Below are positions 44,300-53,056 of a stretch of 64,000 bases of DNA, one piece after another (position 1 is the first letter of the stretch; each line of letters opens with the position of its first letter). Location: contig NZ_CP080531.1 in assembly GCF_024746835.1 (NCBI RefSeq), positions 2,170,001-2,234,000 on the forward strand, in the 5' to 3' direction. The notes below the pieces were generated by a model. That model saw only the letters and a list, made by a program, of their open reading frames with translations. It did not search any database and was not told where the DNA came from. Both the position numbers and the translations under genes were made by a program. Source of the DNA: Mesorhizobium sp. AR02. GTDB lineage: Bacteria; Pseudomonadota; Alphaproteobacteria; Rhizobiales; Rhizobiaceae.

Positions 44300-44389
44300 G
44301 CGCTAAGTGGCCGATCGCAGCAAGATTGAGAGTTCGCCCGTTTGCGCTCATCTTGACGATCGATCTTGGATTCGGGGAAACCAGGCAGC

Positions 44390-46471
44390 ATGACCGGCAA
44401 GACATCATCGGCGCGCAGGAACGGAACCGAGGCGGCGGGCGAGCCCATCCCCTTGCGCTACGGCGACGACCCGTATGTCTGGGCCTGCTGGCTCTACTAC
44501 GAAGACCATATGACGCAAGGCGACATCGCCGAGATCATGGGCATATCGCGGGCGACGGTGAACAGCTATCTGGCCGATGCCCGCGCCCGCGGCATCGTCA
44601 ACATCTCACTCGAACCATCGCGGCTGAGCTCGCTTTCGATCGCGCAGGAACTCAAACGCCATTTCGGCCTGCATGACTGCCTGGTCGTGCCGAGCGACGA
44701 CAACGCGCGGCCGCTGATCGACCGCCTCGGTGGGGCGGCGGCGCAGGCGCTGGCCAAGCTGTTGAAATCCGGCGACACGCTTGCGGTTGCCTGGGGACGC
44801 ACGGTGCTGGCGATCGGCGAGCAGGCATCGGTGCCCGGCCTGCAGGACGTCACCGTCGTCCAGGCCACCGGGGGAACGGCCGCCAACTTCGCCTATACGC
44901 CAGAGCTCTGCGCCTCGGCCATCGCCGGCGCGGTCAAGGCGCGGCTGATCAACATCACCGCGCCCGCCGTCGTGTCCACCGCCGAAGTCCGCGACATGCT
45001 TTTGCGCGAGCCGCTCATCCAAAGCCAGTTCGAGGCGCTTGCCAAAGCCAACAAGGCGCTGTTCGGCATCTCGTCGCTGCGTCCGAATTCGACGATCCAC
45101 ACCAGCGGCTTCTTCGAATCCGTTTCGCTGCAGCAGTATCTCGCCAGGAACGCGGTGGGCGTCGTCGCCGGCCGTTTCATCGACGGCCAGGGCAATCCGG
45201 TGGCCGGCCCGCTCGACGACCGGACGATCGGCATATCGCTGGACATGTTGAAGGCCATAGGCCTGCGCATCGCTGTGGCCGGCGGCTTCGACAAGGTGCC
45301 GGCTATCCTGGCCAGCCTGCGCGGCGGCTACGTCAATGTGCTGATCACCGACGCCGCCACCGGCCGCGGCATCCTCAATGCCGACGGCGTGACGGAGCTC
45401 GACCAGAAGCTGTCGCAGCGCCCGAGGGTCGACAACACGATCGCCCTGCCCAGCAATTACCGGACCCATATCAAGAAATTCCTCAACGACCCCGACGATG
45501 TCGTCGAGGAAATGCTGGATGGCGTGGTCAAGGCCCATGCCGCCTACATCAAGCCGATCAAGGGCTCCAATCGTGCTCTGGTCGCCCGCACCGGACCGAG
45601 GCCCGGCAAGGTCGGGCTGGTGATCGGCGGCGGCTCGGGACACGAGCCCTGTTTTCTCAGCTATGTCGGCAAGGGTCTCGCCGACGCCGTGGCTGTCGGC
45701 AACATCTTTTCGTCGCCTCCTCCCGGGCCGATCCTCGAATGCACCCAGGCGGCATCCGGCGGCGAGGGCGTGCTTTTCGTCTACGGCAATTATGCCGGCG
45801 ATGTGATGAACTTCGACATGGCGGCCGAGATGGCGGCGGACAGGGGCATCCAGGTCCGCACCGTGGTGACCACGGACGATATCGCCTCCTCTCCGCTGGA
45901 GGACCGGGAAGGCCGCCGCGGTGTCGCCGGCAACTTTTTCATGTTCAAGATCGCTGGGGCCGCCTGCGACCGTGGCCAGTCGCTCGATGCCTGCGAGGCG
46001 GCGACACGCAAGGCCAATGCACGGACCTTCACCATGGGCGTCGCGCTGGAGCCCTGCTCGATGCCGCAGACCCGCCGCCACAATTTCGAGATCGGCCCCG
46101 ACGACATCGAGATCGGCATGGGCATCCACGGCGAACCCGGCGTGATCCGCGAAAAGATGATGAGCGCCGATGCGATCACCGACCGGGTGATGGACCGCAT
46201 CTTCTCCGAAATGAAGCCGGCGGCGGGCGACCGCGTGGCGGTGCTGATCAATTCCTTCGGCGCGACGCCCCTGATGGAACTCTACATCCTGTTTAGACGC
46301 GTCGAGCAGCGGCTGAGCGCGAAGGGCATCCAGATAGAGGCGAACTGGGTGGGTCACTATTGCACGTCGCTCGACATGGTCGGCGCATCCATATCGATCC
46401 TGCATCTCGACACCGAGCTGTCGGAGCTTTTGCGACACCCTTGCGATACGGCCGTGCTGCGGATCGGTTGA
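44390..46471 (+). CDS. SorC-type transcription regulator fused to a DhaK kinase domain
   Basis: A 693-residue two-part protein. Residues 1 to about 350 are a SorC/DeoR-like regulator: a helix-turn-helix at 41-65 (MTQGDIAEIMGISRATVNSYL) and a sugar-binding domain (LAVAWGRTVLAIG, ATGGTAAN, GVVAGRFIDGQGNPV). Residues 361-693 are a full DhaK domain with GGGSGHEPC (H418), GNYAGDVMNF, EGRRGVAGNF and GIHGEPGV (H580, the covalent ketose site). All catalytic His are kept, so the domain could bind or phosphorylate a ketose. It is followed by its own DhaL gene. The fusion suggests that the same molecule senses and handles the pathway's ketose. The ATG at 44390 is preferred; an upstream TTG would add eight residues. 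Confidence 0.9.
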   Translation: MTGKTSSARRNGTEAAGEPIPLRYGDDPYVWACWLYYEDHMTQGDIAEIMGISRATVNSYLADARARGIVNISLEPSRLSSLSIAQELKRHFGLHDCLVVPSDDNARPLIDRLGGAAAQALAKLLKSGDTLAVAWGRTVLAIGEQASVPGLQDVTVVQATGGTAANFAYTPELCASAIAGAVKARLINITAPAVVSTAEVRDMLLREPLIQSQFEALAKANKALFGISSLRPNSTIHTSGFFESVSLQQYLARNAVGVVAGRFIDGQGNPVAGPLDDRTIGISLDMLKAIGLRIAVAGGFDKVPAILASLRGGYVNVLITDAATGRGILNADGVTELDQKLSQRPRVDNTIALPSNYRTHIKKFLNDPDDVVEEMLDGVVKAHAAYIKPIKGSNRALVARTGPRPGKVGLVIGGGSGHEPCFLSYVGKGLADAVAVGNIFSSPPPGPILECTQAASGGEGVLFVYGNYAGDVMNFDMAAEMAADRGIQVRTVVTTDDIASSPLEDREGRRGVAGNFFMFKIAGAACDRGQSLDACEAATRKANARTFTMGVALEPCSMPQTRRHNFEIGPDDIEIGMGIHGEPGVIREKMMSADAITDRVMDRIFSEMKPAAGDRVAVLINSFGATPLMELYILFRRVEQRLSAKGIQIEANWVGHYCTSLDMVGASISILHLDTELSELLRHPCDTAVLRIG

Positions 46472-46530: not shown

Positions 46531-47190
46531 ATGATGTCGGACAATGCCGCACGACGCCTGAGCAGGATGTTCTACCGCATATCGATCGCCATCGAGGCGG
46601 GAAAGGATCGGCTGTCCGATCTGGACGGCGCCATCGGCGACGCCGACCACGGCATCACCATGTCGCTCGGCTTCATGGCCGTGAATGCGTATCTGGCCAA
46701 GCTCAATCTCGACGACACGCCTCCCTCGGAGATCTTCACGGCCGCCGCCTCGGCCTTCCTCGACGCCGTCGGCGCCTCCACCGGACCGCTCTACGCGACC
46801 GCATTCCGAAGGGCCGCGCAGGCCCTCAAGCAGGATGAATGCCTCTCGCTCGCCGACCAGGCGGCGATCATCAAAGCGATGACGACCGGCATCATGGAGC
46901 GCGGCAAGGGGCAGCGCGGCGACAAGACCATGCTGGACGTGTGGATCCCCGCCACTGAAGCCGCGCATAACGCGCAGGCCCGCAATGCCGGTGGCACGGA
47001 TATGTGGAACAGCATCCTCGAAGCCGCGGAAGCCGGCGCGAACGCGACGCGGTCCATGGTGGCGGCGCGCGGGCGGGCGGCGCGGCTCGGGGAGCGGTCG
47101 CTCGGCCACATGGACCCGGGCGCCGCCTCGGCCGTGATCATCCTGCGCGCGATGAAGGACACCTTCACCGAAAGCGAGCCTCGGCACTGA
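46531..47190 (+). CDS. DhaL-like kinase subunit, second copy
   Basis: A 219-residue DhaL domain distinct from the one at 43580-44242. The metal motif reads DLDGAIGDADHGITMSLGF, with Asp residues kept; GASTGPLYATAF, RGDKTMLDVWIPA and RLGERSLGHMDPGAAS complete the family pattern. GGGAGGA precedes the ATG. Its position directly after the regulator-DhaK fusion suggests that it supplies the nucleotide site for that DhaK domain, or that it reads its state. In E. coli, DhaL and DhaK act as co-activator and co-repressor of DhaR, a precedent for signalling by these subunits. Confidence 0.88.
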   Translation: MMSDNAARRLSRMFYRISIAIEAGKDRLSDLDGAIGDADHGITMSLGFMAVNAYLAKLNLDDTPPSEIFTAAASAFLDAVGASTGPLYATAFRRAAQALKQDECLSLADQAAIIKAMTTGIMERGKGQRGDKTMLDVWIPATEAAHNAQARNAGGTDMWNSILEAAEAGANATRSMVAARGRAARLGERSLGHMDPGAASAVIILRAMKDTFTESEPRH

Positions 47191-47191
47191 A

Positions 47192-47222
47192 AATCGAGGC
47201 GTCATCCACTCGGGCCTCGATT
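47192..47222. terminator. Hairpin after second dhaL gene
   Basis: AATCGAGGC (47192-47200) pairs with GCCTCGATT (47214-47222) two bases after the stop codon. It is a probable end for the polyol operon transcript and separates it from the PqqD-like unit. Confidence 0.55.
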
Positions 47223-47349
47223 GATCCCTGAAATGGGCGGCCTCTTGCCAGCACCGCTTGCCTTGCCAACGAAGAACCGAGCGTTTACAGGCGTTGTCAG
47301 TGGAAGCGTTCCTGCTGGCGGGCGGGAACTGCGAAGCGGGGCAACAAAG

Positions 47350-47778
47350 ATGCGTGATTGCGACGCCTATGCGGTTGCGAGCAGGGATATCGTCTTCGAA
47401 TCCTTCGATGGCGAGGCCGTGGTGCTCAACCTTGCCAACGGCAAGTATTTCGGCTTCTCCGATTCCGGCAGCAGGGTCTGGCAAGCGCTCTCGTCCGGGG
47501 TCGATACCCAGGCCCTGATCGGGCTGGCCGCCGGCGGTTCGACACTCGGCGCGGCTGAACTCGAACACTTCATCTCGCAATTGCTCGAACTGGGGTTGCT
47601 GGTGCGTTCGGAAGCGGCGGCGCAACCGCTGCCCGGCGATTTGGCTGCCGAGCTTGCCGCCACGAACGAGCCGCTCAATGTGAGCATTCACGACGACCTT
47701 GCCGACCTGATCATCGTGGATCCCATCCACGAGGTCGAGGAACCCCTGGGCTGGCCGGCGGTCAAGCAGGCATCCTGA
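47350..47778 (+). CDS. PqqD-like peptide chaperone with conserved-looking acidic tail
   Basis: A 142-residue protein. Residues 1-86 form a PqqD-like (RiPP recognition element) domain: an N-terminal strand pair around IVFESFDGEAVVLNLANGKYFGFSDSGSRVWQAL (split as FESFDGEAVVL and ANGKYFGF) and a C-terminal helical part ending LLELGLLVRS. Residues 87-142 form a separate tail, acidic, with a hydrophobic patch and DPIHEVEEPLGWP near the end, finishing with Ser. It starts a close-packed unit with an HprK-related kinase. In RiPP pathways PqqD domains bind a precursor peptide; no separate precursor gene is visible here, so the tail itself might be the substrate. ATG at 47350 is chosen; a longer frame from 47221 has no family match. 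Confidence 0.75.
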   Translation: MRDCDAYAVASRDIVFESFDGEAVVLNLANGKYFGFSDSGSRVWQALSSGVDTQALIGLAAGGSTLGAAELEHFISQLLELGLLVRSEAAAQPLPGDLAAELAATNEPLNVSIHDDLADLIIVDPIHEVEEPLGWPAVKQAS

Positions 47779-47810
47779 CGGGCCGGCTGCGTCAGAGATA
47801 GGGGCGCAGG

Positions 47811-48854
47811 ATGCCGCGCGTCACGCTCGAAACCTTGCCGGATTACGCCCGGTATCTCATCACCGCCGCTGAAGCCACACATTATCCGGCCACGCGGACG
47901 GTCCGCCTGCCCCGGCTGGAGCTGACCGCGCATGTCGCTCCCGGCGTGCTTGCCGAGGCGCTCGGCCACGCCTTCTTGGAGGCCGAGGATGACCAGGCGG
48001 AGCCATCGGCATGCCGTATCTTTACCGTTCATCCCGGTATTGACGGCATCCCTGAGCCCGCACGGTGGGGCGACGCACATTTCACTGAATACAGTTTTGC
48101 AGAACGGCTCGCCGGGGCCGGGCTGCGTGGCCACTATTTTCACGATCTGGATTTCTGGCAGGTCTACGATCCGCAACGCCGCGTTGGCGTGCAATTGATG
48201 GAATCGGCCGATGCCTTTCCGCCCTGGGAGCCAGCAGCGCCGCTGCGGGCCTTCCTGCATTGGGACTATGCGGCGCGCGGCATGCGGCTGACCCATGCCG
48301 GCACGCTTGGCGCCAATGGCAAGGGCGTGCTGCTCGCCGGCGCCGGCGGTGCCGGCAAGTCCGGCACGGTCGCCGCCGGTCTGCTCAACGGGCTCGACAG
48401 CGTCGGCGACGACTATGTGCTGATCGATCTCGGCGGCGGCGTGACCGCGCGGCCGCTGTTTTCAACGCTGAAGCAGGACCCGCAAGGTTTCGCACGGCTG
48501 GGCCTGAAGCAGCGGCTGAGGATCGACAGCCCCTTGAACTGGCAGGGCAAGCACACTTTTCACATTGCCGACATCGCGCCCCGGCCCGTGCCTGCAGCGC
48601 TGGACATCGTTGCGCTGGTGGTGCCACATATCGGCGGTGGCGAGACGAGTTCGATCGTGCCGGTGTCGCGTCGAGACGCCATGATAGCACTGGCACCGTC
48701 GGGCATCATGCAGATGCCGGGGGAGCGCGAAAGCGGCTTCCGTTTCTTCGGCGATCTCACTCGCCTGCTGCCAAGCTATCGTCTGTCCCTGGGAACGCAT
48801 CCTGAGGAGATTGCCGGCACTGTTGCGGATTTTCTAACACGAGTTGTTTCGTGA
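47811..48854 (+). CDS. HprK-related kinase (HPr kinase A type)
   Basis: A 347-residue protein whose C-terminal half is an HPr-kinase-like P-loop domain. The Walker A loop is GAGGAGKS at 177-184, followed by SVGDDYVLID with the catalytic-type Asp pair. The N-terminal 150 residues match no HprK and are probably a specific substrate-binding part. In lasso-peptide clusters related kinases phosphorylate a peptide's terminal Ser next to a PqqD protein, so the upstream gene may encode the substrate. True HprK is encoded at 61955-62416, so this is a distinct function. Its stop overlaps the next gene's GTG by four bases. Confidence 0.8.
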   Translation: MPRVTLETLPDYARYLITAAEATHYPATRTVRLPRLELTAHVAPGVLAEALGHAFLEAEDDQAEPSACRIFTVHPGIDGIPEPARWGDAHFTEYSFAERLAGAGLRGHYFHDLDFWQVYDPQRRVGVQLMESADAFPPWEPAAPLRAFLHWDYAARGMRLTHAGTLGANGKGVLLAGAGGAGKSGTVAAGLLNGLDSVGDDYVLIDLGGGVTARPLFSTLKQDPQGFARLGLKQRLRIDSPLNWQGKHTFHIADIAPRPVPAALDIVALVVPHIGGGETSSIVPVSRRDAMIALAPSGIMQMPGERESGFRFFGDLTRLLPSYRLSLGTHPEEIAGTVADFLTRVVS

Positions 48855-49603
48855 AGTTGAGCGTGATCATGCCCGTCTACAACCGCGAACGCTATGTCGT
48901 TTCGGCCTTGCGCTCACTGCTGCGGCAGCGCGATGCCGCCGATCTCGACATCATCGTCATCGACGACGGCTCGACCGACGGTTCGGCGGAGGCGGTGCGT
49001 TCGATGATGGTCGAGACCCCCTGCATCCGCCTGTTCCGACAAGAGAATATGGGCGTGACCCGAACCCGCAATGCTGGTCTCAGGCTGCTCAAACCGGAAA
49101 CGGAGCTCGTGTCGTTCCTCGATTCGGACGATGTCTCGCCTGCCGGACGATTCAAGGCCGATATCGCCTGCTTTCAGGCCGACCCAGGTCTCGAGCTTAC
49201 CTATTCCCTCATGATGCTGGTCGACGGCATTGACGACGACAGGCTGGAACCCGGGCCTGACAGCCATTTCATGACCGTGCGGGGAATTCATCTGTCGGCG
49301 GCGATTTTCTCGCGCAAGCTCGTCGACCGGATCGGCGGCTTCGACGAGGCCTTCAGCCAGGCCGAAGACACCGACTACCTGCTGCGCACCTTTGAAAGCG
49401 GCCCCAGATTCGTCATGCCGGATACCGTGGCGCTCTATTACAGACGTCACCCCGGCAACATGACGAAGCAGGCCGACACATCCCTTCGGGAGTTCATGCG
49501 GGCCATCCACAAATCGATGAAACGGCGCAAGGCCGACCCCTCACTGTGCGGGATCGAAGGCATCTTCGATGTCAAGGAACTCGCCAATTGGCGTTTCACG
49601 TAG
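48851..49603 (+). CDS. Glycosyltransferase family 2, first copy
   Basis: A 250-residue GT-A-fold glycosyltransferase. The nucleotide-sugar site shows SVIMPVYNRERYVVSALRSLL, IIVIDDGSTDGS, and the DXD-type SFLDSDDVSPAGR near residue 98, followed by GGFDEAFSQAEDTDYLLR, where the acidic residue of the catalytic ED motif is present. The GTG start overlaps the preceding kinase stop (GTGA). No membrane span is seen. The acceptor is unknown; the context suggests a peptide or surface polymer. Confidence 0.88.
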   Translation: MKLSVIMPVYNRERYVVSALRSLLRQRDAADLDIIVIDDGSTDGSAEAVRSMMVETPCIRLFRQENMGVTRTRNAGLRLLKPETELVSFLDSDDVSPAGRFKADIACFQADPGLELTYSLMMLVDGIDDDRLEPGPDSHFMTVRGIHLSAAIFSRKLVDRIGGFDEAFSQAEDTDYLLRTFESGPRFVMPDTVALYYRRHPGNMTKQADTSLREFMRAIHKSMKRRKADPSLCGIEGIFDVKELANWRFT

Positions 49604-49604
49604 C

Positions 49605-50282
49605 ATGCGGACCTATGGCGTCGTCATCCCGGCCTTCAACGCCAGCGGCACCATCGCCGAGACGCTGCTATCGGTCGCGGCGCAGACGGTGCGCCCTGAC
49701 CTGGTGGTGATCGTCGACGATGGTTCAACCGACGATCTGGCTTCAGCGATCGGCGGAACGGACCTGCCGGTGCAACTGCTGCGCCAGGCAAATGCCGGGC
49801 CTGGCAGCGCTACGACCCGAGGCATCGCCGCCCTGTCGACGCCGCTCGTCGCGACGCTCGATGCGGACGACCTCTGGCTGCCGAACAAGATCGAGAGGCA
49901 GCTCGCGCATCTCGACAAATCTCCCGCGACATCGGGGGTCTTCTGTCAGTGGCGGAATTTCCGCAACGACCAGCCCGACGCGCCCGAGGCCGCGGCCGTG
50001 CCGGGCTGGTCGCGGACCACCATGATGATCCGCCGCGATGTCGCCGGGACGGTTGGACCCATCGTCGATCCGCCGGGCGGCCGTGGCGAAATGATCGACT
50101 GGATCGCCCGGGCGCGCGAGGCGGGCCTTGCCCTCGACATGCTGGACGAGGTGCTGGCGCTGCGCCGCATTCGGCCGGGCAGCCTGTCCTATGGACGCGA
50201 TGCGGCCCGCGATCGCGGCTATCTCGAAGTGGCGCGGCTCGCCATGCTGCGGCGGGCGCAGAACAAGACCGGCTCGAGCTGA
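49605..50282 (+). CDS. Glycosyltransferase family 2, second copy
   Basis: A 225-residue GT-A-fold enzyme beginning one base after the previous stop. It shows GVVIPAFNASGTIAETLLSVAAQ, LVVIVDDGSTDD and ATLDADDLWLPNKIE (DXD-type). The C-terminal part is shorter than in copy one, with GEMIDWIARAREAGLALDML where the acceptor-site motif is expected. Its TGA overlaps the next ATG (TGATG). The two transferases may add successive sugars. Confidence 0.85.
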   Translation: MRTYGVVIPAFNASGTIAETLLSVAAQTVRPDLVVIVDDGSTDDLASAIGGTDLPVQLLRQANAGPGSATTRGIAALSTPLVATLDADDLWLPNKIERQLAHLDKSPATSGVFCQWRNFRNDQPDAPEAAAVPGWSRTTMMIRRDVAGTVGPIVDPPGGRGEMIDWIARAREAGLALDMLDEVLALRRIRPGSLSYGRDAARDRGYLEVARLAMLRRAQNKTGSS

Positions 50283-52063
50283 TGGCAGATATTCGCCGTA
50301 TCGAGCGTCGCTTCCCGGACTATGGCTGGTCCTGGCCGACGGGCGGGCTCGACCAGTTGCTCAAGGCCGCACTTCTTCCCGACGAGGACGCTGCTGCCGC
50401 TTGCGCCGGCCGCTGGCTGGACGAGAACGATATCGATCACGTCTCGTTCCGCGAGCACCGGCTGCTGGCCGCCATCTCCGACAGGTTCGGCAGGAAGCTG
50501 GCCGGCCATTCCGCTTATCCGCGCCTCGTCGGCCTGCAGAAGATGCTGTGGACCAAATCGCGCATGGCGATGCGCGAAGCCGAGCCGACGCTGAAGGCGA
50601 TGACGGATACGGGATGCAAGGTGATGCTGATCAAGGGCGCCAGCCGCATCGCATTGAACGCCTCGGCACAGCGCGGCAGGGTGGCGCATGACATCGACAT
50701 ATTGGTGCGGCCGCAGGACATGAAAACGGCCTTCGACGTGCTGCGCGACGGCGACTGGCAGATCGCCACCGGCGTCAGCCCGCAATATCTGCGGACGAGA
50801 CTGGCGTCGCTGCGCTCGATGAATTTCTTCAAAGGCAATCTTGGTGACATCGACCTGCACCAACTCGCCTATGACGGTTCGCAGCGAAGCGAGGAAGACG
50901 ACCTGGCCATCTGGCAACGGGCGGATAGCGCCGAGTTCAGCGGCGTCGGCGTGCTGGTGCCGTCACCGGCCGACCGCATCGCGCTGGCCATCGCGCATGG
51001 CGGGCTCGACGCCCACACGCACAGCGACTGGCTGGTCGATTGCGCGGTGGCTATTCGCGGCGGAGATGTCGACTGGGACGTGTTCCTCGATGTTGTCGCC
51101 AAGCGCGGCCTTGCTGTTGCCGCAGCGGTGGCGCTCTCCTATCTGGCGCTTGAAACAGGCGTGGCAGTGCCGGGCAAGGTGCTGGCGCGCGTGCTGGAGC
51201 TGGCCGACCGCAGCGGCCTCTCGCGCTGGTCGGCCGTGCTGCAGGCCAAGCCGCGGACCGATTTCGGCAGGCTGGTCTGGTTGTCGCGCGGCCTCGCCAA
51301 GCAGTTGCGGCTGAGGCGCAGGAGCGGCCGGCTGCGGCAGGAGCCGCCAGCCACGGCCTGGCGTGGCAAGCCAGCCCGCAACGCGCCATCGGAAACGGCG
51401 CCGCCACCCGTGTTCTCACAGGCCATACCGTGCCCGCTGACGGCAGGCGACATGATGCTGGACATCACGGTCAGGATCCGTGTTCCGCCGGTCCGCCGCC
51501 GCATCGAAATGGAGATCAATGCCGATGACGACCATATTGCGCGCCTGCGCGCCATGGCCATCAGCCGGTCGGGTGGGGAACGGGCGCTGCATTTTCGCGG
51601 CAAGGTAACGCTTGACGGGCAAAGGCGCGCCGTGACGCTGGAGGCGCGACCTTCCCGGCAATTTCGTCAATGGGACGATAATGCGAACCGTGGCGGCCTA
51701 TGGCGCACTGCCCTTCCATCTCATCTCGGCGACGTTTTCGCCGCTGCGCTGAGAATCGCGTGGCGACTTTCCGCTGCGATTATGATGTCTGGCCGTCTAT
51801 CGCCGTGGAAACAAGGGGGCCGCGTTCACGGGCTCTTATGTCGGCAAGCATCCATGCCGACAGGGACAATGGCACCAAGATGCCGATGCCGAGCCCGACA
51901 AAGTTCACCAGATGCGCGATGGCAGGGTAGAGCCAGACCAGCGCCAGGAAAAGCCGAGCTATGTTGGCGCGCCTCGAAAACAGGTAGGCGACGGCGACGG
52001 CAAGACCGACCGTGTCGTAACTGTAGCCATAAGGCGTCGCAACGGTTGCCAACACGGCGGTGA
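50282..52063 (+). CDS. Nucleotidyltransferase family protein (NTP_transf_5 type) with run-on C-terminus
   Basis: The first part (about residues 1-370) is a nucleotidyltransferase-fold protein of the uncharacterised PF14907 type: MLIKGASRIAL near 115 followed by HDIDILVRP with D137 and D139, then DIDLHQLAYD near 200. Similar proteins occur beside PqqD/HprK-type pairs and in lasso-peptide clusters. Its start overlaps the second glycosyltransferase stop. The frame stays protein-like to about residue 495 (LGDVFAAALRIAWRLSAAI), after which it becomes Arg-rich and runs 284 bases into the opposite, well-formed GT87 gene. Thus the real stop was probably near 51780 and was lost by mutation or sequence error, giving 593 codons as read. 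Confidence 0.7.
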   Translation: MADIRRIERRFPDYGWSWPTGGLDQLLKAALLPDEDAAAACAGRWLDENDIDHVSFREHRLLAAISDRFGRKLAGHSAYPRLVGLQKMLWTKSRMAMREAEPTLKAMTDTGCKVMLIKGASRIALNASAQRGRVAHDIDILVRPQDMKTAFDVLRDGDWQIATGVSPQYLRTRLASLRSMNFFKGNLGDIDLHQLAYDGSQRSEEDDLAIWQRADSAEFSGVGVLVPSPADRIALAIAHGGLDAHTHSDWLVDCAVAIRGGDVDWDVFLDVVAKRGLAVAAAVALSYLALETGVAVPGKVLARVLELADRSGLSRWSAVLQAKPRTDFGRLVWLSRGLAKQLRLRRRSGRLRQEPPATAWRGKPARNAPSETAPPPVFSQAIPCPLTAGDMMLDITVRIRVPPVRRRIEMEINADDDHIARLRAMAISRSGGERALHFRGKVTLDGQRRAVTLEARPSRQFRQWDDNANRGGLWRTALPSHLGDVFAAALRIAWRLSAAIMMSGRLSPWKQGGRVHGLLCRQASMPTGTMAPRCRCRARQSSPDARWQGRARPAPGKAELCWRASKTGRRRRRQDRPCRNCSHKASQRLPTRR

Positions 52064-53000
52064 GAACCACTCTTTCGCCATGCTGGACCTGCCGCCAGGG
52101 CAGCCAGACCCAGATGGCGGCGGCGATGGCGGCGATCGTCGCAACCGCCTGCATTGCATAGGCAACTGTCAGTCCCGCCCCGCATGCGCGCGCCAGGAAG
52201 AACATGGTTGCGGCGTTGGCCTGGTAGGGCTGCGGATAGGGCGCCTCCAGTATCGCCGTCATCAAGGGACGGGTTTCGGTCCAGAACAGCCGCCAGACGT
52301 CGAAGCCGAGTGCGGCGCCAGTCAAAATGAACAGCGCTGCCGATGACAGGGCGGCGGCGACGATGGCGCGCCAGTTGCCGCTGGCCAGCAGGCAGAACGG
52401 GACCAGAATGCCGAGATGCGGCTTGACCGTCAGCAACCCGAACAGCAGCCCGGCAAGGATCGGCCGCTTTGGCGCGATGGCCAGTCCGCCGATGAGGAGA
52501 GCGGTGGTCAAGGCGCCGTTCTGACCGAAAATAGCGTTGACGAATACGGCCGGACACACACAGATGGCCGCTTCGGCAAGCGTGCCCATTTTCAGCGGCC
52601 GCACCGCCAGCCACAGGCAGAAGACGGTGCCGAAGGTCCAGATGAAATAGGCCGAAAAAATCGGCAGCAGCGCCAGCGGCGCGCCGAAGATGAGGATGCT
52701 GGGCGGGTAGCTCCATTCCTGATTGGGAAGATCGGGCGAGAACATCTGCCGCAAGGCCGCGCGATAGGTGTCGACGTCGAACAGCCAGGCAACATGGCCG
52801 TCGAGCGCCATGCGCCCGCCGGCCCACAGATTGGTGAAATCCCAGTAGGGCAGCCGGTCGCTGAGTTCGGAGAAGCCGTGCTCGTCGAAGGTCCACAGAG
52901 CAAGATGGTAGCGCAGGCCGATCAGAATCCCGGTGCACAGCACAAGTGCCGCGAAACGGAGATCGGATCGATTGCGGGCAGTCTGATCGACCGGTGCCAT
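51780..53000 (-). CDS. GT87-like integral membrane glycosyltransferase (DUF2029)
   Basis: A 406-residue protein with about ten hydrophobic spans and a periplasmic loop containing DFTNLWAGGRMALDGHVAWLFD near residue 45, the conserved region of DUF2029/GT87 polyprenol-phosphate-mannose-type transferases. Other family traits are WSYPPSILIFGAPLALLP and LFGLLTVKPHLGILVPF. It transfers sugars from a lipid carrier outside the inner membrane. ATG at 53000 is used; a TTG at 53015 is also possible. Its 3' end overlaps the convergent nucleotidyltransferase frame. Confidence 0.8.
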   Translation of the reverse strand: MAPVDQTARNRSDLRFAALVLCTGILIGLRYHLALWTFDEHGFSELSDRLPYWDFTNLWAGGRMALDGHVAWLFDVDTYRAALRQMFSPDLPNQEWSYPPSILIFGAPLALLPIFSAYFIWTFGTVFCLWLAVRPLKMGTLAEAAICVCPAVFVNAIFGQNGALTTALLIGGLAIAPKRPILAGLLFGLLTVKPHLGILVPFCLLASGNWRAIVAAALSSAALFILTGAALGFDVWRLFWTETRPLMTAILEAPYPQPYQANAATMFFLARACGAGLTVAYAMQAVATIAAIAAAIWVWLPWRQVQHGERVVLTAVLATVATPYGYSYDTVGLAVAVAYLFSRRANIARLFLALVWLYPAIAHLVNFVGLGIGILVPLSLSAWMLADIRARERGPLVSTAIDGQTS

Positions 53001-53056
53001 TGTGCTGTTTTCCAAGACCCTGGCAGCCTTGATAAGGGATTTGCGTTAAGATCGGC

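Follow-up and report, generated by a model that had tools for sequence, protein, structure and literature searches.

Related systems and the five-gene cassette

In the lasso peptide clusters of pseudomycoidin and paeninodin (PsmK, PsmN, PadeK), as far as described in the passages cited here, an HPr kinase homologue with a His-Lys-Asp-Asp set is clustered with an annotated nucleotidyltransferase and a PqqD-type RRE. According to the same passages, PsmK phosphorylates the pseudomycoidin peptide, the addition of hexoses to this phosphate requires PsmN, and the C-terminal Ser is the residue type phosphorylated by lasso kinases (PMC9266682, PMC8498205); the His-Lys-Asp-Asp set is reported as required in these kinases (PMC9266682). 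Here we describe a cassette of five genes from Mesorhizobium sp. AR02 that encodes a PqqD-like RRE protein, an HprK-like kinase, two GT2 glycosyltransferases and an NTP_transf_5 nucleotidyltransferase. All positions are those of the window, a stretch of 64,000 nucleotides of contig NZ_CP080531.1. The cassette differs from the pseudomycoidin and paeninodin clusters by its GT2 enzymes, by kinase-GT2 fusions in relatives and by a conserved tail on the RRE protein, and no protease, cyclase or precursor was found near it. PsmN is likened to the nucleotidyltransferase by its annotation.

The data support the cassette as a real conserved functional unit. Our reading, which is tentative and held at slightly less than even chances, is that the five genes would form one phospho-glycosylation machine in which the tail serves for docking; the acceptor would most likely be a peptide or protein encoded elsewhere, and possibly a glycan. 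The features are as follows.

47350..47778, plus strand: PqqD-like protein, 142 amino acids, with the RRE domain at about residues 5-90, a linker and a tail (PF05402 match)
47689..47757, plus strand: ultra-conserved C-terminal tail motif, residues 114-136 of the PqqD-like protein
47811..48854, plus strand: HprK-like kinase, 347 amino acids, H162/K183/D200/D201 (conserved quartet; profile against HprK structures)
48851..49603, plus strand: GT2 glycosyltransferase A (GT2-A), 250 amino acids (PF00535)
49605..50282, plus strand: GT2 glycosyltransferase B (GT2-B), 225 amino acids (PF00535)
50282..51752, plus strand: NTP_transf_5 nucleotidyltransferase (NTP5) with a C-terminal beta domain (PF14907; ends of relatives)
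47263..47291, plus strand: promoter-like element TTGCCA, 17 bp, TACAGG directly 5' of the PqqD gene (conserved upstream of orthologues)

The coordinates of the open reading frames (ORFs) confirm the five genes, their packing and their spacings as given in a preliminary description of this DNA. A 32-bp gap separates the PqqD and kinase genes, the kinase and GT2-A genes overlap by 4 bp, GT2-A and GT2-B are 1 bp apart, and GT2-B and NTP5 overlap by 1 bp. The family assignments made there also hold: PqqD, both GT2s and NTP_transf_5 are recognised by Pfam, and the kinase by weak HprK_rel matches and a structure-profile match. The parallel drawn with lasso clusters is borne out by NTP_transf_5 standing beside an HprK-like kinase, as the nucleotidyltransferase does in pseudomycoidin. 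The range given, 47350..52063, starts correctly and ends in a frameshifted read-through, the family stop being near 51752. The C-terminal tail had gone unremarked.

The HPr-rel-A system of NCBIfam (TIGR04352 kinase, TIGR04353 PqqD) also combines a PqqD with an HprK-related kinase. However, the window kinase reaches 24.9 bits with HprK_rel_A where the cut-off is 200, TIGR04353 does not match the window PqqD, and among 80 tailed PqqD proteins it matches one, with E 2.8e-4. As the TIGR04352 and TIGR04353 cut-offs are not reached, identity with HPr-rel-A was rejected. In the open-licence literature searched (subscription papers and preprints lay outside its scope), the gene combination was found only for lasso clusters, the tail strings did not occur, and no characterised polysaccharide pathway with standard roles for all five proteins turned up. 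There is a chance that the cassette is a kind of its own.

The RRE protein and its tail

The PqqD-like protein matches PF05402 with 25.9 bits (cut-off 23.4). In the structure model its body has the winged-helix fold expected of an RRE, three strands followed by three helices, and lasso B1 structures align to residues 3-88, excluding the tail. As modelled, it is a true RRE fold like that of the lasso B1 protein TbiB1. Lasso B1 proteins are the closest to this body: NF033536 is matched by 69 of the 80 tailed members and, with 31.5 bits (cut-off 80), by the window protein. The lasso RRE proteins TbiB1 and TfuB1 have no tail and are 25-26 % and 16 % identical to the PqqD-like protein.

The tail consensus is Y-x-D-M-Q-D-L-L-x-L-D-P-I-H-(D/E)-V-D-x(2,3)-G-W-P (22-23 residues, 23 in the window). 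In 26 Mesorhizobium sequences found via the kinase, and hence free of selection on the tail, the ratio of nonsynonymous to synonymous polymorphism (pN/pS) is 0.040 in the tail and 0.299 in the RRE body, a roughly sevenfold stronger constraint on the tail. Of the tail residues, two Leu, Asp, Pro, His, Gly and Trp are invariant in all 67 dereplicated diverse relatives, and the information per column is 2.86 bits in the tail versus 1.73 bits; this set is partly tail-selected, and tail conservation and co-occurrence in it rest on that choice. The alignment left out L152, L117 and L166 as too short, the second PqqD of L121 on the minus strand, and 11 near-identical sequences. In one irregular locus (L167, 4084-4892) the ORF continues beyond the tail into what appears to be the beginning of another PqqD domain, truncated where the contig ends.

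Such identity across phyla is as expected of a docking motif for a conserved pocket. The motif contains no Ser, Thr, Tyr or Cys in the window, in 24 of the 26 orthologues and in 6 of the 67 diverse relatives. To judge from the residues, phosphorylation of PqqD inside the motif is unlikely as a general rule, and the composition in the orthologues fits docking better than a phospho-acceptor role.

One possibility is that the PqqD-like protein is its own substrate in cis: it would combine an RRE with a leader and core of its own and be modified at the C-terminal Ser (in Mesorhizobium) or at a His, Asp or Trp residue within the tail. Indeed, no short peptide element other than the tail was found to recur across loci, the constraint on the tail is extreme, and the strand predicted at residues 111-114, between the RRE and the tail, sits where a leader would lie. 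Of 32 same-genus proteins, 25 terminate in Ser, that of the window among them. On the other hand, the remaining seven end in Asn, Pro or Thr, and Ser ends just 8 of 66 diverse PqqD proteins. Other cassette proteins of the same-genus loci often end in Ser too, namely the kinase (11 of 31) and GT2-B (14 of 30 or 31). The tail motif has no conserved hydroxyl, and its cross-phylum near-identity is unlike natural-product cores, which vary. We consider this explanation quite unlikely.

Conservation in Mesorhizobium

The preliminary description had called for a check of co-occurrence, and the homologues do co-occur, as seen in surveys of 61 same-genus genomes, 398 genomes of the phylum and 81 loci from a wider collection. 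Of the 61 same-genus genomes, 30 carry the kinase together with the tailed PqqD and the other 31 lack both. The kinase search gave 26 close orthologues including that of the window, the other 25 being 72-94 % identical. A distant version, with 28-29 % identity, occurs at five loci in four further genomes, and one of the 26 orthologue genomes (G022) holds an additional distant locus. The regions fetched number 31, namely 25 orthologues (L031-L055), five loci of the distant version (L056-L060) and one further locus (L061). The order PqqD, kinase, GT2-A, GT2-B, NTP5 is kept in 30 of them; L061 has PqqD, kinase and a double GT2, with no separate GT2-B or NTP5 match. No full tailed PqqD was found in the 31 genomes lacking such a kinase. 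Four of these gave partial matches, and a stretch of 29 residues in G029, 83 % identical, looks like a remnant. Some of the 31 do have other kinases of the superfamily, as G047, which a broader profile matches with 87 bits.

The orthologous cassette lies directly 3' of two genes that by sequence look like a Rieske oxygenase pair in 19 of 25 loci, and the downstream genes vary. The distant version is located at other genomic sites. The cassette is self-contained. Several copies are damaged: L043 (9111-10700) lacks the terminal part of the kinase gene and the initial part of the GT2-A gene, L052 (12646-13521) has a short NTP5, and L215 (1489-1575) is a lone PqqD remnant, which suggests repeated loss of the unit in the genus. 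A minus-strand pair of AbrB-like and PIN-like genes, probably a toxin-antitoxin pair from the look of the sequences, occurs just 3' of NTP5 in L036, L041, L044 and others, each gene clustering in five loci.

The element upstream of the PqqD gene is a putative promoter. TTGCCA is present in all 26 upstream regions, and the second box follows at the same spacing as TACAGG (17 regions), TACAGC (3), TAGACG (4) or others (2). A sigma-70 consensus scan gave no site at 47263..47291, and Rfam gave no match in 47100-52100. If this element is a promoter, little space is left for a precursor gene ahead of PqqD.

Distribution beyond the genus

In the 398 genomes of the phylum, kinase matches above 140 bits and PqqD matches reaching into the tail were found in the same six genomes, four of them Mesorhizobium. 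At the thresholds applied, any match of the PqqD profile was observed in 27 genomes and any match of the kinase profile in 50; the respective 21 and 44 outside the family are partial or weaker.

A scan of a collection of 84,980 species with the tail only gave 423 pattern matches, of which 304 were confirmed by tblastn and 80 were kept. By record title, these loci span about ten phyla, and many come from metagenome-assembled genomes. The titles include Alpha-, Beta- and Deltaproteobacteria, Bacteroidetes, cyanobacteria, Chloroflexi groups, Nitrospirota, Actinobacteria, Acidobacteria, Planctomycetes, Aminicenantes, Ignavibacteriae and a Bacillota. In every one of the 80 loci a single plus-strand ORF carries the motif, and no ORF of the opposite strand does. 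The motif is the C-terminus of a PqqD-like ORF; L117 and L152 are truncated at the end of the contig, and two further loci, L166 and L167, are irregular.

With one annotated plasmid (Crinalium) added, the set comprises 81 loci, of which 72 have the kinase, 74 a GT2, 67 NTP5 and 62 all three. When the count is restricted to the 46 loci flanked by 5 kb or more on either side, the corresponding numbers are 44, 44, 41 and 41. The Crinalium record is the only match among 72,556 plasmid records, and one search of phage records gave none; plasmid or phage carriage was rejected.

Kinase, glycosyltransferases and nucleotidyltransferase

The window kinase has no Pfam match and, besides HprK_rel_A, weakly matches HprK_rel_B. 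Its profile matches the HprK structures 1jb1, 2qmh and 1ko7 over approximately positions 159-215. Residue alignments retained 54 of 75 kinases and 62 of 74 NTP5 proteins (off-length and second matches were dropped), plus the window proteins. The catalytic quartet is kept: H162 in 55 of 55 sequences, K183 and D200 in 54, and D201 in 55. The His-Lys-Asp-Asp set of lasso tailoring kinases is thereby present, the positions being matched by motif and not by alignment to lasso kinases.

In 15 of the 81 loci the kinase and a GT2 form a single polypeptide. The fusions come from records of Nitrospirota, Bacteroidetes, Deltaproteobacteria, Sphingomonas, Phenylobacterium and Actinomycetales. Pfam found GT2 in all six fusions analysed and Hpr_kinase_C, below the cut-off, in five. 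These fusions suggest that phosphorylation and glycosylation act on one product. In the window, both GT2 proteins match PF00535, and a tandem second copy of GT2-A is present in 17 of the 25 other orthologous loci of the genus.

NTP_transf_5 is listed by Pfam as uncharacterised. The window NTP5 matches PF14907 with 74.9 bits (cut-off 31.2). Its open frame runs on to 52063, whereas relatives are 485-509 amino acids long from the first aligned residue in 28 of 30 cases (the exceptions are L052 with 287 and L043 with 479), their typical end being at about 489. The family C-terminus, with a stop at 51750-51752, is encoded in a different frame of the window. The window copy thus has a frameshift near 51680, either real or a sequencing error. 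Residues K118, R133, D137, D139, H193 and D253 are conserved in 55-62 of 63 sequences. The AF2 model of residues 1-465 has a mean per-residue confidence (pLDDT) of 81 and a predicted template modelling score (pTM) of 0.83. It weakly resembles the NTase-fold transferases LnuA, ANT(2'')-Ia and FKRP, a likeness of fold only, with E no better than 2.5e-3. FKRP is a ribitol-phosphate transferase, and the title of an entry that names CDP-ribitol agrees with this. The C-terminal domain, compared within the whole model, gave no fold match with E below 0.001. A GT87 membrane glycosyltransferase gene (51780-53015) faces the cassette, and it is also present in three of the 25 orthologous regions (L033, L037, L043).

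Neighbouring genes and the search for a precursor

No separate precursor shared across lineages was observed: among 1478 small ORFs in the 81 loci, no cluster exceeded three lineage groups, and the sole cluster reaching three is the start of a larger protein. In the 500-bp flanks of the Mesorhizobium loci, upstream stretches match up to 24 other loci in several frames and on both strands; these matches probably stem from the coding gene upstream and from the conserved promoter-like element. Downstream stretches match nine other loci, the minus-strand AbrB-like/PIN-like pair being included.

A lasso-type pathway, or another pathway for ribosomally synthesised and post-translationally modified peptides, might have its protease, cyclase and precursor encoded at unlinked sites. 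The closeness of the PqqD body to lasso B1 proteins is consistent with this, as is the occurrence of such kinases and nucleotidyltransferases in lasso clusters, in the passages cited (PMC9266682, PMC8498205). The discrete RRE (B1) of lasso clusters is indeed present. However, Pfam found no Asn_synthase cyclase (C) and no transglutaminase-type protease (B2) among the 16 window proteins scanned (five of the cassette and 11 others), in agreement with the preliminary description, and neither is among the 25 commonest of 124 neighbour families. The lasso B1 structures, moreover, align without the tail. A scattered pathway of this kind is very improbable.

Of the neighbour clusters elsewhere, one of ABC exporters spans 31 locus groups; GT1/GT4-like proteins are represented in 11, SDR/epimerase-like proteins in eight and Amj-like proteins in seven, and sulfotransferase-like neighbours, labelled from the look of the sequence, in eight. 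Pfam analysis of 81 neighbours gave ABC_tran (17), Glycos_transf_1 (8), adh_short (6), Amj (5) and Epimerase (5). These 81 were chosen by hand from 261 ORFs by closeness to the core genes, and the 25 commonest families were tallied. Genes were called by simple ORF rules and some spurious antisense ORFs were kept, apparently including the second-largest neighbour cluster.

A second cluster in the same genome (contig C2, 1924001-1943000; L173) encodes a tail-less PqqD of 99 amino acids, NTP_transf_5, GT2 and an Hpr_kinase_C protein, together with a membrane protein of the ABC type and a sugar transferase of the Bac_transf family. By its gene content it looks like an exopolysaccharide locus with the same enzyme kinds.

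Another explanation is a peptide-free surface-glycan pathway, in which a lipid or polysaccharide would receive a phosphate-containing oligosaccharide made by the kinase, the GT2 enzymes and NTP5, and PqqD would serve only to hold the complex together. It remains a strong rival because the number of GT2 genes varies among close relatives, as in the tandem GT2-A copies, and export and flippase genes (ABC exporters, Amj flippase) recur elsewhere beside GT1 and epimerase genes. In L173, moreover, the corresponding enzymes lie a few kb from the Bac_transf gene. However, no initiating sugar-phosphate transferase, flippase or glycan exporter was found among the 16 scanned window proteins. To our knowledge, the HprK-type kinases whose function is established have proteins or peptides as substrates, which we count against a glycan pathway. 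In the cited passages, RRE domains of known function bind peptides (PMC12710340, PMC7470986). We regard the glycan explanation as unlikely, though a serious contender.

The ABC genes of the window, at 38-41 kb, are of the sugar-uptake type. The segment 59168-63999 contains two-component genes, a short HPr kinase (Hpr_kinase_C) and small PTS-like genes, presumably chvI, chvG, manX and HPr by the look of the sequence. A link of the cassette to these genes, about 10 kb downstream, was dropped: besides the window, a chvI-type gene is present in four of the 25 orthologous 20-kb regions, a count from which region edges may hide some cases. At 44366-46471, a Sigma70_r4-like helix-turn-helix, the sugar-binding regulator domain PF04198 and Dak1 are combined in one protein, probably a regulator fused to a dihydroxyacetone-kinase domain. 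An anti-phage defence system was considered and rejected, as none of the five cassette proteins matches any PADLOC model.

Proposed function

From these observations we infer a series of chemical steps and their order, a docking role of the tail with its partner, and an acceptor. The PqqD-like protein would be an adaptor, whose RRE domain binds a peptide segment or protein acceptor. The ultra-conserved tail would dock a partner enzyme common to these systems, either the kinase/GT2 unit or the nucleotidyltransferase. The HprK-like kinase would phosphorylate a hydroxyl of the acceptor, and the GT2 enzymes, fused to the kinase in some bacteria, would add sugars. NTP_transf_5 would then act on the phosphorylated product, transferring to it a nucleotidyl or sugar-phosphate group; PsmN apparently plays this part once PsmK has acted. 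The preliminary description had suggested phosphorylation and glycosylation of a small protein or peptide, or surface-polymer assembly controlled by it. The conserved unit, the RRE fold, the His-Lys-Asp-Asp set of the kinase and NTP_transf_5 stand, and a peptide is a putative acceptor.

Several observations weigh against the proposed machine. Two long-flanked loci with the tail (L124, L155) are devoid of the kinase, GT2 and NTP5, and three others (L092, L093, L123) of NTP5. The loci from which the kinase profile was built had been found by means of the tail, and the threshold of 140 bits was chosen with the scores in view; near-full-length matches lie below it, one of 87 bits in G047 and a second match of 83 bits in G015, and as far as searched, no tailed PqqD is present in the genome or adjacent to these matches. 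The C-terminal Ser of most same-genus PqqD proteins would suit PqqD itself as the acceptor. The tail is modelled at low confidence (block means of 53, 55 and 46 from residue 121), and docking is not visible in the model. Finally, the flanking functions (ABC exporters, Amj-like flippases, GT1, epimerases) vary by lineage and would suit a glycan product too.

Alternatively, this may be an RRE-dependent system spread across phyla in which the recognition domain and the recognised peptide reside in one polypeptide, the tail serving as a self-presented scaffold or carrier on which, or by way of which, the kinase, the GT2 enzymes and the nucleotidyltransferase would assemble a phosphoglycan. We find this improbable.

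Whatever the acceptor of the proposed phospho-glycosylation machine, an odd five-gene cluster has become a defined family with a diagnostic signature of 22-23 residues, usable as a mining probe. The signature is found beside HprK-like kinases, GT2 enzymes and NTP_transf_5 proteins from Mesorhizobium to Bacteroidota, Cyanobacteriota, Chloroflexi groups, Nitrospirota and Actinobacteria. According to the passage cited, 21 % of PF05402-matching proteins exceed the size of a plain RRE and carry no other Pfam annotation (PMC12710340), and the tailed class may be part of these. The family gives NTP_transf_5 a testable role, and it suggests that RRE domains may serve systems beyond classical peptide natural products.

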